A program made the translations under genes and the position numbers. The notes under the pieces are model-generated. The model saw only the letters and a program-made list of their open reading frames with translations. It ran no database searches and was not told the DNA's origin. Below, piece by piece: positions 3,059-6,747 of a stretch of DNA of 7,117 nucleotides; positions within the stretch are counted from its first letter, which is position 1, and every line of letters starts with the position of its first letter. Source of the DNA: Anaerolineaceae bacterium (lineage in GTDB: Bacteria > Chloroflexota > Anaerolineae > Anaerolineales > Anaerolineaceae); the NCBI GenBank assembly GCA_028714615.1, contig JAQTMA010000210.1:1-7117 (forward strand), read 5' to 3'.

Positions 3059-3359
3059 CGTATCGCTCCGTTAGAATTACGATTCTCTTATGCTCTGGAA
3101 TCATTGCGATGACCTCATCAATGGTAGGTGCTTTCTGTAATCCAGCTAACTCAGCGACGAGCCCCTCCCAATTTAAACCTAGTTCATGCGCCATAACAGG
3201 ACGGCCTAATGCTTTTTCCAATGCTTCATGAAAAACTTCAAATGGGCAGCATAGATTAACCTGAACCAACTGAAACGCTGCAATGAAGGCAGGAGTTGCG
3301 GTCTCCCACCATCCTGTCTCCGCTAACGCGATGGCCTCTTTCCGTGTTAGCTGTTTCAT
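3051..3359 (-). CDS. Conserved phage protein, 102 aa, unknown function
   Basis: The protein starts MKQLTRKEAIALAETGWWE, then FQLVQVNLCCPFEVFHEALEKALGRPVMAHEL (about residues 29-60), and ends with an IDEVIAMIPEHKRIVIL segment. The F-H-x-A-x-E-x-A-L-G-R-P-V-x-x-H-E pattern is one I know from unannotated proteins of proteobacterial phages, often beside the 62-aa type that follows here. It looks like a soluble alpha-helical protein with a final beta strand. The ATG forms ATGA with the polymerase stop, and GAGGT lies about eight bases upstream, so it is both coupled and independently initiated. No enzymatic motif is visible. Confidence 0.82.
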   Translation of the reverse strand: MKQLTRKEAIALAETGWWETATPAFIAAFQLVQVNLCCPFEVFHEALEKALGRPVMAHELGLNWEGLVAELAGLQKAPTIDEVIAMIPEHKRIVILTERYDE

Positions 3360-6300
3360 TTTCTATACCTCTTGGCTTCAAACCCTGCCGCCGCCAGCGG
3401 CAGACCGGATGCCCATGGAATTGGAGCGGACATGCATTGCGCCAGTTCGTCTACGGTGTACTCGGGCGAGTCAGGGACTTCGGTTATCAGCTCGTCGTGT
3501 ACCGATAGTACAAGTTTATATCCGGCTTCCTCTGCTTTCTTCATGCCACAAACGAGTATGTCCCGAGAAACAGCTTGGACACAGTTATGTACTATAACAG
3601 GGCCTGCCGCAGTTATGATAGTAAAAGAATGGCGGGGGCCGCAATTTAGCAGATCGTAAACGGATTCCTTTTTAGCTATATTTTTCCACGTCAAGGTCAT
3701 TTGAGATGGCACATTTATTTCTTTCATTATGTTTAGCGATGATCCACTCAATTGATCTTCCTTTTTCAATATGGTAGCGCAATGAATTTGAGCTTCCCCA
3801 ATTAGGCAAAAAAAGTCTCCTGAACTCTGATGTCGGTATGCTGACCCCATTATAGTCGATAAAAGTTGTTTTCCTTCGATTATTTGCATTGATCTTTCTT
3901 GGAACGAGTCTGATATTTCCAGGCTCATAATTTCCATCATTGTTGATTCTATCAATATCAAGAGATATATCATCCCATCCAAATAGAGTCTTTCCATAAT
4001 CGAAAAACACTCGTCGGTTACTTCTCCATTCTTCATACATTGATATACCTCGCGCGCCATAATTCTTGTACTCAGCGCATGATGGGGAATAACAACGCCG
4101 TATGATTCCAGTATAGCGATGATTCCACAAGCTTCTGATTTTCGCATCAGAAAAAACGTCTGAATACCGTTCTCGTTTTTTCCCACCTTCAACCCAACCA
4201 CACGAGCTACACCTGATGGCCTGGCCTCTAAACAGTTGTCGGTTGCAAATTTGGCTAACACGTCCACAGTCACATTCGCATTCTGAATATTCTGAGTTTC
4301 CAATGCCTGCGTATAGCACAACGAGTTTATCGAAACGCGCCCCCACTTTAGGGCTGCGAGCGTAGCATTTTCGTCCAGAGCTATCACAGGTTTCCACAAC
4401 CTCCCATCGTGGATCAATTGATTCGATGTTAAATGAACACCCAGCCATTCTCCTACCTCTTGCTCACCTTGATATATTGGGCCTTCAGTATTGACCCATT
4501 CATAACCATCCCACACTAAATCCTTAGACGTTATGTCAACTATAGTTTTTATACCGGCTTTAGTCAATACCTTTGTATCATAAGCAAAACAATTTTCTAC
4601 CAGCTTCCCGCTATAGGTTTTGATCCAGCCCCACTTCTTACTAATCGGACGGACTCCAAGATACATCAGATTGTTGGTTTCGTCCACATCATCGTCTATG
4701 GCATCTTCTTCCTTGATTTCATCAATGCCTTTTACTTTCATGTAGGGATAGGTCAGGCAACGGCCTGATGGCAAGATCACCCTAAGCCACACGCCTTTCA
4801 ATTCCACTTGTATGTAGCCAACCTCATACATAGTACCTGGGTATTGCAATGCGCTTCGTATGGCGTTTTCCAGGTCGTAGGCGAACCTGACTATGTTTGG
4901 GTTGGCTTGCCTATACAACTGCTTCAATCCATCGCATGCAATATAGGTCTGTTTATCAAGTCCAAAGACCGCGCTGGTAATTTTTTCCAGCCGGCTATTT
5001 AATTTCTTTTTTTCAGAAGTGAAAGTTTCCTCTTCTATTTTAAGCCTTATTTTTTCACGCTTCTTCTCTCGTTTATCTTCCTTGGTCATTGCGCGATCCC
5101 ACATTTCCTCACCCTTATAGATAATGTCCTGAGAAAGTGTAGGATATACCACAGCACCGATTTGGTTTTCAATATCAATGTTAAAACCCGTCGCTCCTTT
5201 TACTATCGCGCCGACGCCGCCCAGGTACTGAAGCAATAACGAGGCCACCTTTCCAACCTGTCGTTGGCTTTTGCTGATGGCTGATATTGGAACCTTAAAC
5301 ATATTAGAATAGGTTAATTTATATTGATCTTCGCCGGTGCCGGCATCGTATTTTCTGAACGCTTCAAGTACCCATTCCTCGCCTGCCAGCCAAGCCAGAA
5401 CCCGTGCTTCGATGGCGCTTAGATCGGCCACGACCAGCTTCATCCCTGACCTGGCGGTAAAGGCTCCCCGGATGACGGCGGCACAGGCTTCCATGATGTC
5501 GTCCGTAAGCAGGTCAAGGGAATCCAGTTTGATGAATTCCGCGAGGTCTTCACAGAGCCCGGCATCAATGGCTTTCTCGTCCATGGGTCTTCCTTTCCAC
5601 ATAGGTCTCGGAAGGTTGTGAGGCTGCAATCCCTTACCCGCCCACCGCCCGGTACGGGAGGCTCCGCAAAACTGTAAGCTTCCCCGTAGTCTGCCATCCG
5701 CTGACACCCACTCCAGAAACTTGGCGTACTTAGCGGTGCTAGTCTTGGTCGCACTCTGGCGATTGTTCAGCAGTTCAAGCAAGACCAGCGGCAGGTCCGG
5801 TTGCTCAAGCAGCCGGGAGACTGTGGCCTTGGTCAAATCTGAAATGGCCAGGTCGTATTCGCTAAGTATGAACCGAAGAAGCGCATCCCGTTGGGTCGTT
5901 GAAGCGACTCGCTGGTTTGTGAGCTCTCGGGCGCGATCCGCCAGCCGTCCCTTCTCAGCGTTGGTCAGCCGGATGGCGGCCTCGCATAACTCAGTATCGA
6001 CGCAAACCCCGCGCCGATTGATCTCATAATCCAGGTATAGCGTGCGAAGTTCGCCACCCCGAAGGTTCCATCGCGGCATCCTCCGGAAAACCTCCCGCAT
6101 GGCCACGATGTCCATCATGGCATACTCGCAAAACTCGACCCACTCCTTGGGGTGGGTCAACCGGGTGGCGCGGCCTTGCTTCCTCGGCACACAGAACAGA
6201 TGGATGAGCGCTTTACCATTCTTGAGCTTGCGTTGATCCTGGGGGAGCCCAAGAATTTCACAGAGCTTGTCCAAGGAGCCCGGCAGCGAATGGGCCAAAG

Positions 6301-6643
6301 CTTGAAGCATCGTATCCCACATCCGCTCTGGCGGAATCCGGATGCCTAATGCGTGTTCAAGCACCACGGAATCGAAATTGAAACCGTTGTGCCACACTAA
6401 AAGTATATCGGGGTCTTCTAATATTCTTTTAAGGTACACCGGCATTGGCCCGCCAAGTGTCAAGTCCCAAATATATACTTGGCTATCGCTTAACGCACAG
6501 GTCCAGATCAGAACCTCGGCGGCTTCCGCATAGCGGTGGGAGCCATAACCAATCGGAATCGGCGAATAGGTTTCCAAATCCATGAAGGCAAGCTTTGGCT
6601 TCTTGCCATCGAACCAACCTATTTCGTGGGAGGGCAGGATCAT
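3356..6643 (-). CDS. Family A DNA polymerase with 3'-5' exonuclease domain, interrupted by an intein
   Basis: This is the phage replicative DNA polymerase: a 1095-aa precursor, about 759 aa after splicing. Exonuclease motifs: D22-L-E24, N89-F-D91, Y174-x3-D178. Polymerase motif A is D407-L-S-A-I-E-A-R; motif B has R461, K465 and Y473; motif C is V-H1049-D1050-E. An intein (C685-N1020) splits GKLVEN/CVQAVSRD just before motif C, so D1050 joins the active site only after splicing. A Lys/Glu-rich, low-GC insertion lies near residues 517-555. Start: the ATG at 6643 overlaps the upstream stop as ATGA; a TTG at 6664 in the same frame adds seven residues without a good ribosome binding site. The stop overlaps the next gene as ATGA. 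Family and motifs are certain; the start is likely. Confidence 0.95.
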   Translation of the reverse strand: MILPSHEIGWFDGKKPKLAFMDLETYSPIPIGYGSHRYAEAAEVLIWTCALSDSQVYIWDLTLGGPMPVYLKRILEDPDILLVWHNGFNFDSVVLEHALGIRIPPERMWDTMLQALAHSLPGSLDKLCEILGLPQDQRKLKNGKALIHLFCVPRKQGRATRLTHPKEWVEFCEYAMMDIVAMREVFRRMPRWNLRGGELRTLYLDYEINRRGVCVDTELCEAAIRLTNAEKGRLADRARELTNQRVASTTQRDALLRFILSEYDLAISDLTKATVSRLLEQPDLPLVLLELLNNRQSATKTSTAKYAKFLEWVSADGRLRGSLQFCGASRTGRWAGKGLQPHNLPRPMWKGRPMDEKAIDAGLCEDLAEFIKLDSLDLLTDDIMEACAAVIRGAFTARSGMKLVVADLSAIEARVLAWLAGEEWVLEAFRKYDAGTGEDQYKLTYSNMFKVPISAISKSQRQVGKVASLLLQYLGGVGAIVKGATGFNIDIENQIGAVVYPTLSQDIIYKGEEMWDRAMTKEDKREKKREKIRLKIEEETFTSEKKKLNSRLEKITSAVFGLDKQTYIACDGLKQLYRQANPNIVRFAYDLENAIRSALQYPGTMYEVGYIQVELKGVWLRVILPSGRCLTYPYMKVKGIDEIKEEDAIDDDVDETNNLMYLGVRPISKKWGWIKTYSGKLVENCFAYDTKVLTKAGIKTIVDITSKDLVWDGYEWVNTEGPIYQGEQEVGEWLGVHLTSNQLIHDGRLWKPVIALDENATLAALKWGRVSINSLCYTQALETQNIQNANVTVDVLAKFATDNCLEARPSGVARVVGLKVGKNENGIQTFFLMRKSEACGIIAILESYGVVIPHHALSTRIMAREVYQCMKNGEVTDECFSIMERLYLDGMIYLLILIESTMMEIMSLEISDSFQERSMQIIEGKQLLSTIMGSAYRHQSSGDFFCLIGEAQIHCATILKKEDQLSGSSLNIMKEINVPSQMTLTWKNIAKKESVYDLLNCGPRHSFTIITAAGPVIVHNCVQAVSRDILVCGMKKAEEAGYKLVLSVHDELITEVPDSPEYTVDELAQCMSAPIPWASGLPLAAAGFEAKRYRK
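3672..4448 (-). CDS. HNH-family homing endonuclease nested in the intein in the -1 frame
   Basis: This 258-aa protein is read in a different frame from the polymerase/intein that encloses it. Residues 1-33 overlap intein block B and look like a by-product leader. From G36 the layout matches free-standing phage HNH/AP2-type endonucleases: a G-A-R-F-x-K-L-V-V strand, a zinc-ribbon-like set C57-x-C59-x-C61-G and C80-x2-C83, a core W108 to Y130-G-A-R-G-I135, and a nuclease segment LDIDRINNDGNYEPGNIR (163-180) followed by NANNRR. A C-terminal DNA-binding repeat (about 197-237) has the Y-N-G-x-S-I-x-x-S-E-F and R-x-x-I-E-K-G-R-S patterns. It has a Shine-Dalgarno at 4455-4460, a same-frame TGA at 4464-4466 just before it, and its TAA lies just before intein block F. 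The likely role is cutting intein-free polymerase genes to spread the cassette. Target site and activity are inferred. Confidence 0.9.
   Translation of the reverse strand: MAGCSFNIESIDPRWEVVETCDSSGRKCYARSPKVGARFDKLVVLYAGIGNSEYSECECDCGRVSQICNRQLFRGQAIRCSSCGWVEGGKKRERYSDVFSDAKIRSLWNHRYTGIIRRCYSPSCAEYKNYGARGISMYEEWRSNRRVFFDYGKTLFGWDDISLDIDRINNDGNYEPGNIRLVPRKINANNRRKTTFIDYNGVSIPTSEFRRLFLPNWGSSNSLRYHIEKGRSIEWIIAKHNERNKCAISNDLDVEKYS
4455..4460 (-). promoter_or_regulatory. Internal Shine-Dalgarno for the nested HNH endonuclease
   Basis: AGAGGT lies six bases before the ATG at 4448 (AGAGGT-AGGAGA-ATG), embedded in the intein codons for E-Q-E-V-G-E-W. In the endonuclease frame a TGA stop sits at 4466-4464 directly upstream. 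The gene therefore cannot be a read-through fusion from the intein start and must begin its own translation, unless ribosomes shift frame in the 18 bases between. Confidence 0.7.
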
Positions 6644-6747
6644 TTCGGGCCAAACAGAAGCCAATCCAGGCAGTAGCTGATAAACGCAGCGACTATAATT
6701 AAAGCCGTCAGTATTAAACCGATACCAGAATATATTTTAGCTATCAT
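6640..6747 (-). CDS. Tiny single-span membrane protein, 35 aa
   Basis: A 35-residue peptide that starts MIAKIYSGIG, has one hydrophobic span (about residues 9-25), and ends CLDWLLFGPK. Its ATG overlaps the stop of the 55-aa gene and its TGA overlaps the polymerase ATG at 6643; both junctions are ATGA. Two such junctions in a row, together with the membrane-like composition, argue that it is translated. A GAG about nine bases upstream is a weak Shine-Dalgarno. The role is unknown; it may serve partly to couple polymerase translation to the genes upstream. It is easily missed by gene finders because of its size. Confidence 0.55.
   Translation of the reverse strand: MIAKIYSGIGLILTALIIVAAFISYCLDWLLFGPK

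Follow-up and report, generated by a model that had tools for sequence, protein, structure and literature searches.

The usual picture of an intein is that of a single protein carrying its nuclease within it, and the locus described here raises the question of whether a mobile intein can also be built from two genes that overlap in different reading frames. The locus was found in an Anaerolineaceae bacterium assembly (GCA_028714615.1); we refer to the whole stretch analysed, positions 1 to 7117 of contig JAQTMA010000210.1 (7117 nucleotides, nt), as the window. An earlier note on this DNA had proposed that an intein in a DNA polymerase has its splicing blocks in the polymerase frame, while a complete HNH endonuclease of 258 amino acids (aa) is encoded over the same bases in the -1 frame. 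Our re-examination confirmed this two-in-one layout as well as the frame and the coordinates given for the polymerase, the intein and the HNH open reading frame (ORF). We conclude that the window very probably carries a mobile polymerase intein, with the predicted homing nuclease encoded by a complete HNH gene of its own in another frame of the same bases. The features of the locus are as follows.

3356..6664, minus strand: family A DNA polymerase precursor of phage type (3'-5' exonuclease and polymerase domains), the intein host; ORF of 1102 aa, TTG start as listed
3584..4591, minus strand: intein of 336 aa, beginning with Cys1 and ending in His-Asn (polymerase residues 692-1027), at the site ...GKLVEN / CVQAVSRD..., called pol-c
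4307..4591, minus strand: N-terminal splicing half (N half), intein residues 1-95, with block A, 'VWDGYEWV' and block B
3584..3694, minus strand: C-terminal splicing half (C half), intein residues 300-336, with blocks F and G, VYDLLNCGPRHSFTIITAAGPVIVHN; AlphaFold2 confidence (predicted local distance difference test, pLDDT) 97 over residues 301-336
3581..3583, minus strand: Cys+1, the first C-extein residue, read from the sequence
3672..4448, minus strand: HNH endonuclease gene (258 aa) nested within the intein in the +2 (= -1) frame
4449..4460, minus strand: Shine-Dalgarno-like stretch of the nested gene, AGAGGTAGGAGA immediately 5' of the ATG, read from the sequence; anti-Shine-Dalgarno (anti-SD) duplex energy -7.6 kcal/mol
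3711..4349, minus strand: nested-gene residues 34-246, alignable to other HNH proteins according to the PHROG match ranges

The polymerase ORF matched Pfam DNA_pol_A (3e-16), DNA_pol_A_exo1 (1e-6) and the PHROG 17 DNA polymerase profile (4e-107). The intein ends fit the splicing rules (C1, H335-N336 and Cys+1), and the predicted structure of the window intein is a clear HINT fold formed from both ends, with the PI-SceI and PI-PfuI structures among its matches. The intein N-terminus profile TIGR01445 matched weakly (E=0.012, below its cut-off). AlphaFold2 modelled most of intein residues 103-294 with a pLDDT below 50, and the middle of the intein is thus predicted to be a disordered linker. As in the mobile inteins PI-SceI and PI-PfuI, HINT halves enclose a nuclease between blocks B and F. 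In those inteins, however, it is fused in frame as part of one polypeptide, whereas the nuclease of the window is an HNH enzyme in the +2 frame and presumably a separate polypeptide. The nuclease of PI-SceI and PI-PfuI is of the LAGLIDADG type. The N half also weakly matched PHROG 93 ('endonuclease', VRR-NUC; profile positions 3-67, E=0.006). This profile, which is matched by 42/44 aligned inteins, appears to contain an intein N-terminal half at about positions 3-67, and inteins may therefore be misannotated as endonucleases.

As the earlier note had stated, the nested gene has a start and a stop of its own, together with a Shine-Dalgarno (SD)-like site: the ATG lies at intein residue 48/49, just 5' of block B, with GAGG 7 nt upstream, and the stop at residues 306/307, just ahead of block F (VYDLL at 311). 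A comparison of the 258-aa protein with HNH families, proposed at the time, gave a match to PHROG 374 HNH endonuclease (E=4e-31) over residues 34-214, which span the cysteine-rich part and the HNH core. Cysteines C59, C61, C80 and C83, which precede the HNH core, are likely to form a zinc ribbon, and the protein folds confidently in structure prediction. The intein frame of the window matched no HNH family. The same division was seen in relatives: HNH PHROGs were matched by 0/44 in-frame translations of aligned inteins and by all 54 rows, window included, of an alignment of HNH-frame proteins (A6), ten of which are database proteins retrieved by HNH search. Bases 3711..4349 double as code for most of the predicted disordered linker.

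HNH genes are common in phage group I introns (PMC11855218), and the insert might be taken for such an intron. It does, however, encode splicing blocks and has no stop in the host frame. Rfam gave no match in the window at the gathering threshold, and none in 3400-4800 even at E values up to 1. With no group I RNA core found, we rejected this explanation as extremely improbable.

How widespread is the layout? Alignments of intein ends fetched 230 further loci from viral contigs, some of which share one contig, and the resulting survey of 235 loci plus the window was scanned with profiles for the N half, the C half and HNH. It yielded 252 N halves and 209 distinct intein sequences, of which 187 had N half, C half and HNH. 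None of these 187 distinct inteins, window included, had the HNH in its own frame. In 182 the intein is large, its frame is open and the HNH lies in an alternate frame (102 in +1, 80 in +2); the remaining five are two of mini length with HNH remnants (L089, L162) and three large ones with stops (L024, L115, L157). Among the best 120 polymerase homologues, 118 had a large insertion gap relative to the extein by automatic count, and the HNH profile matched none in frame (best E 2.4).

Automatic labels placed the 182 cassettes at sites pol-a (90), pol-a' (11), pol-b (25) and pol-c (37), with 19 labelled 'helicase' or 'other'. Sites pol-a and pol-a' are two places in the QIGK..ELA region, whereas pol-b lies between GGK-L/S and C and pol-c between EN and C. 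By their flanks, nine of the 19 are polymerases and ten are not. Eight of these ten hosts were scanned for domains (all except L145 and L044): four carry SNF2 domains (L148, L119, L092, L143), one belongs to a phage DNA helicase family (L158) and three to terminase large subunit families (L152, L153, L102). Two-frame cassettes thus occur at at least four polymerase sites and in helicases and terminases, i.e. in three kinds of phage gene. Four database proteins (P0002, P0006, P0007, P0076) are single polymerases that seem to contain two or three inteins at different sites.

Isolated phages also carry the cassette, namely APSE-1, APSE-7, Caulobacter phage GB2A, Salmonella phage vB_SalS-S10 (S10) and Escherichia coli phage fEg-Eco19. 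DNA similar to the whole S10 cassette was present in 163/50,697 phage records, a count of DNA similarity in which the HNH frame was not checked record by record. The Ent1 record annotates an intein of S10's size (897 nt) and has no HNH feature.

We asked whether openness of both frames could be fortuitous. When the codons of the window HNH gene were shuffled synonymously 5000 times, the intein frame acquired a mean of 4.07 stops and was stop-free in 0.12% of shuffles, against 0 stops observed; the third frame had 33 stops with 31.4 expected from the same shuffles. Conversely, shuffling the intein codons never reproduced the observed 263-codon open run in the +2 frame (0/5000). Two-frame openness in the window is therefore more than chance. 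Across 128 dereplicated cassettes (frame 1, n=70; frame 2, n=58), which had been chosen as open, the exceptions being L024, L115 and L157, the intein frame contained 0 stops over the HNH region versus about 589 expected from synonymous shuffles (419.3 in frame 1 and 169.4 in frame 2). The third frame contained 742 and 700 stops (707 and 699 expected) and was open in 0/128. As controls, 4/4 free-standing phage HNH genes carried stops in each of the other two frames, in numbers close to expectation, and 4/4 separate HNH genes in the surveyed loci also contained stops in both.

Substitutions were analysed in 48 disjoint cassette pairs drawn from relatives of the window. Outside the overlap, the third codon position of the intein changed most (0.25-0.41). 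Inside the overlap, it was the third position of the HNH gene (0.39 and 0.36 vs 0.11-0.16). Amino-acid identity over the same bases had a median of 77% when read as HNH and 46% when read as intein, and the HNH value was the higher one in 48/48 pairs. The pattern and the identities indicate that the intein frame in the overlap is kept open while its residues drift, as expected of a spacer. The earlier note had named homologues with a conserved in-frame endonuclease and a decaying -1 frame as a finding that would undo its proposal. No such intein is present among the 187, and in the overlap it is the HNH frame that is conserved; one exception, in Salmonella phage SS3e, lies outside the survey and is discussed below.

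In an unrooted HNH tree of 139 rows, the frame label was strongly clustered, with 4 changes for three groups compared with a mean of 50.1 after shuffling. One half of the tree held 58 frame-1 rows and all 8 free-standing rows, and the other half held the 58 frame-2 rows and a separate clade of 12 frame-1 rows. This topology suggests that the nesting of an HNH gene into an intein may have happened more than once.

These data also bear on the trivial possibility that frameshifts introduced by sequencing or assembly disguise an ordinary intein with an in-frame HNH. The SS3e case illustrates that records of one cassette can disagree on frame. Two compensating errors had already been judged unlikely in the earlier note, and rightly so: the layout recurs in 182 distinct cassettes in two different frames, isolated phages among them; the frame is clustered on the HNH tree; S10-like cassette DNA recurs in the phage records counted above; and codon periodicity flips at both borders of the overlap. 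For the class, sequencing error is already contradicted, and we regard it as a hardly credible explanation overall.

If the cassette is mobile, alleles without the nuclease or without the whole intein might be found, and the earlier note had proposed to look for both. For the window we found the former. Database protein P0001, whose extein is 98.0% identical to that of the window (744/759 aligned residues), has a 139-aa mini-intein at the same site, with its first 51 and last 26 residues identical to the window intein and without an HNH-sized middle. Empty alleles were found only for related cassettes. Exactly the 897 nt of the S10 intein are missing from Salmonella phage SHWT1, whose flanks are 91.3% identical, and the same 1201-nt empty span was present in 10 of the 60 records listed out of 401. 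APSE-7 strains differ by the presence of the intein, their exteins being 98.3% identical. One APSE-7 strain polymerase (L243, LR794146.1, 995-3058), recorded as 'partial, missing large internal portions', is an intein-free allele, and its annotation can be corrected accordingly.

Two of the surveyed loci (L162, 2902-3409; L089, 4024-4495) have mini-length inteins that keep short alternate-frame HNH remnants, probably decaying nucleases. Such remnants, together with mini-inteins devoid of HNH, suggest that decay happens, and the nested HNH of the window might itself be a relic no longer under selection. Its ORF is, however, of full length, retains the four cysteines and other columns invariant in a 53-row alignment, and encodes a confidently predicted fold. 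We therefore consider a relic quite unlikely.

Split arrangements occur as well. In the fractured genes reportedly described by Dassa in 2009, the intein is split and a free-standing nuclease separates its halves. The window resembles them in that a nuclease gene lies between two intein halves and its product is presumably made separately, but their host is broken in two, whereas the window polymerase frame is open throughout and the host is a single ORF overlapping the nuclease. At the pol-c site of L024 (4024-4987), the N half runs into a stop and is followed first by an HNH gene and then by a C half that lies closely behind an in-frame Met; the locus looks like the known fractured form. L157 (135-1136) and L115 (1286-2272) are split-intein-like polymerase genes with HNH between the halves, at a further site near reference-extein residue 365. 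L183 (2337-3553) and L190 (2413-3622) each have a split intein in the polymerase, inserted near residue 330 and spanning about 1.2 kb; the HNH profile did not match either locus, which may carry another nuclease family.

Several observations weigh against the proposed reading of the window as a mobile intein with a separately made nuclease. Splicing, cutting and homing are activities that we infer. Foldseek by itself gave no match below an E value of 0.001 for either model. With no close DNA relative available, the window falls outside the substitution-pattern test, and three HNH-bearing relatives (L024, L115, L157) have a closed or shifted intein frame. Block B of the window reads Thr-x-x-Gln rather than TxxH; the histidine is present in 43/44 aligned inteins, the sole exception being the window, and mini-intein P0001 likewise has Gln at this position. 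Splicing could therefore be slow or impaired in the window. Some inteins without the block-B histidine are said to splice.

The missing histidine would also fit an insertion of the ShiLan type, in which an HNH gene sits in an open host frame, nothing is spliced and the polymerase tolerates an extra loop. The ShiLan domain, reported in 2025, is an out-of-frame HNH in a phage gene, and for such insertions in phage methylases, whose host frame is open, the account of it states that no splicing domain or intron was found (PMC11855218). A further out-of-frame-HNH methylase of this kind appears in another report (PMC12613952). The window shares with ShiLan, and less certainly with the Pacc40 insertion, an out-of-frame HNH in an open phage gene and a sporadic distribution (PMC11855218). 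Moreover, Pfam Intein_splicing matched only 1/44 aligned inteins. Unlike in ShiLan, however, the flanks of window-type cassettes encode a predicted HINT domain, and an insertion that does not splice is very unlikely to account for the window.

Doubts also concern how the nuclease would be made. In 31/70 frame-1 representatives the nested start lies at nt 202, and in these cassettes the mean anti-SD energy reached its minimum (-6.8) in the 9-mer that starts 13 nt upstream, which in many rows listed falls within the bases encoding '(E/D)GW' of block B. The SD signal was not clean in the +2 cassettes, the group of the window, and a best-of-background comparison of anti-SD energies did not separate real starts from others. 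Internal initiation is therefore indicated most weakly for the window's own group. In Salmonella phage SS3e (L246, 24693-27793), the polymerase is spread over orf41, orf42 and orf43, and orf42 (database protein P0131) joins the intein N half and HNH in one frame. Given the three ORFs, the one-frame fusion is either a deletion variant or a sequence error. This N half-HNH fusion at the DNA level and the weak SD signal in +2 cassettes would agree with programmed ribosomal frameshifting that joins the HNH to the intein N half. The shared start position with a well-placed SD-like site in the frame-1 representatives argues against it, and, although no search was aimed at frameshift signals, we think frameshifting quite unlikely and favour internal initiation.

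We propose the following cycle. A ribosome reading the polymerase gene would produce a precursor that splices itself, and internal initiation at the nested ATG would yield the HNH enzyme as a separate protein. In a co-infecting phage, this enzyme would cut the polymerase allele lacking the intein, whereupon repair would copy the whole cassette into the cut allele. Selection would retain the HNH protein and the stop-free polymerase frame at once. Decay of the nuclease would leave a mini-intein, and closing of the polymerase frame would leave a split intein with a separate nuclease gene; sequences resembling each of these two outcomes occur at the same sites or at related ones.

The layout is a real, recurrent variant of the mobile intein. 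It seems somewhat more probable than otherwise that it represents a general phage class, hosted by polymerases, helicases and terminases, of mobile inteins written in two frames, with overlapping genes for splicing protein and nuclease. Such a class would have arisen several times (two frames, separate HNH clades), would be stabilized by joint selection, would act as a hub for mini- and split inteins, and would free the nuclease from the host protein and its dosage.

Our literature search found no account of a two-frame intein class, only single cases. The statement in the earlier note that no standard family is built this way nevertheless needs correcting, since the layout is widespread and single cases had been noted before (PMC4422536; the APSE-1 P46 record). 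In 2015, a brucellaphage terminase with an out-of-frame HNH was called 'intein-encoded' by its authors (PMC4422536). It resembles the window in that an HNH gene in another frame overlaps the central part of an open phage gene. It differs, as far as the description in that paper goes, in that the host is a terminase from one phage group and the passages concerned contain no analysis of splicing blocks, fold or two-frame selection. In APSE-1, the HNH ORF P46 is annotated inside the DNA polymerase P45, shorter than the open frame allows. It is a cassette of the same type at a neighbouring site, but in the +1 frame and in a polymerase about 40% identical to that of the window. Inteins are also implied for other Guernseyvirinae in one report (PMC6763661) and mentioned for Jerseyvirus in another (PMC8425127).

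The arrangement is of interest because the same bases serve two functions that apparently belong to different polypeptides, and do so in either alternate frame and at several sites. It would account for many 'large' phage inteins with a middle part that has no match, and would connect mini-, full and split inteins by a natural path. It would also be a strong case of long overlapping genes with each frame clearly under selection. One idea that becomes testable is that a homing nuclease need not be spliced together with an essential gene in order to invade it. The cassettes also put many new phage splicing domains on offer.

Two neighbouring genes were recognized in the window, both on the minus strand. 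A VRR-NUC-type endonuclease gene (2379-2672; PHROG 93, 1e-23) lies downstream of the polymerase, as it does near the APSE polymerase, and an Rv2179c-like 3'-5' exoribonuclease gene (Pfam PF16473, 3.5e-53) occupies positions 462-998.
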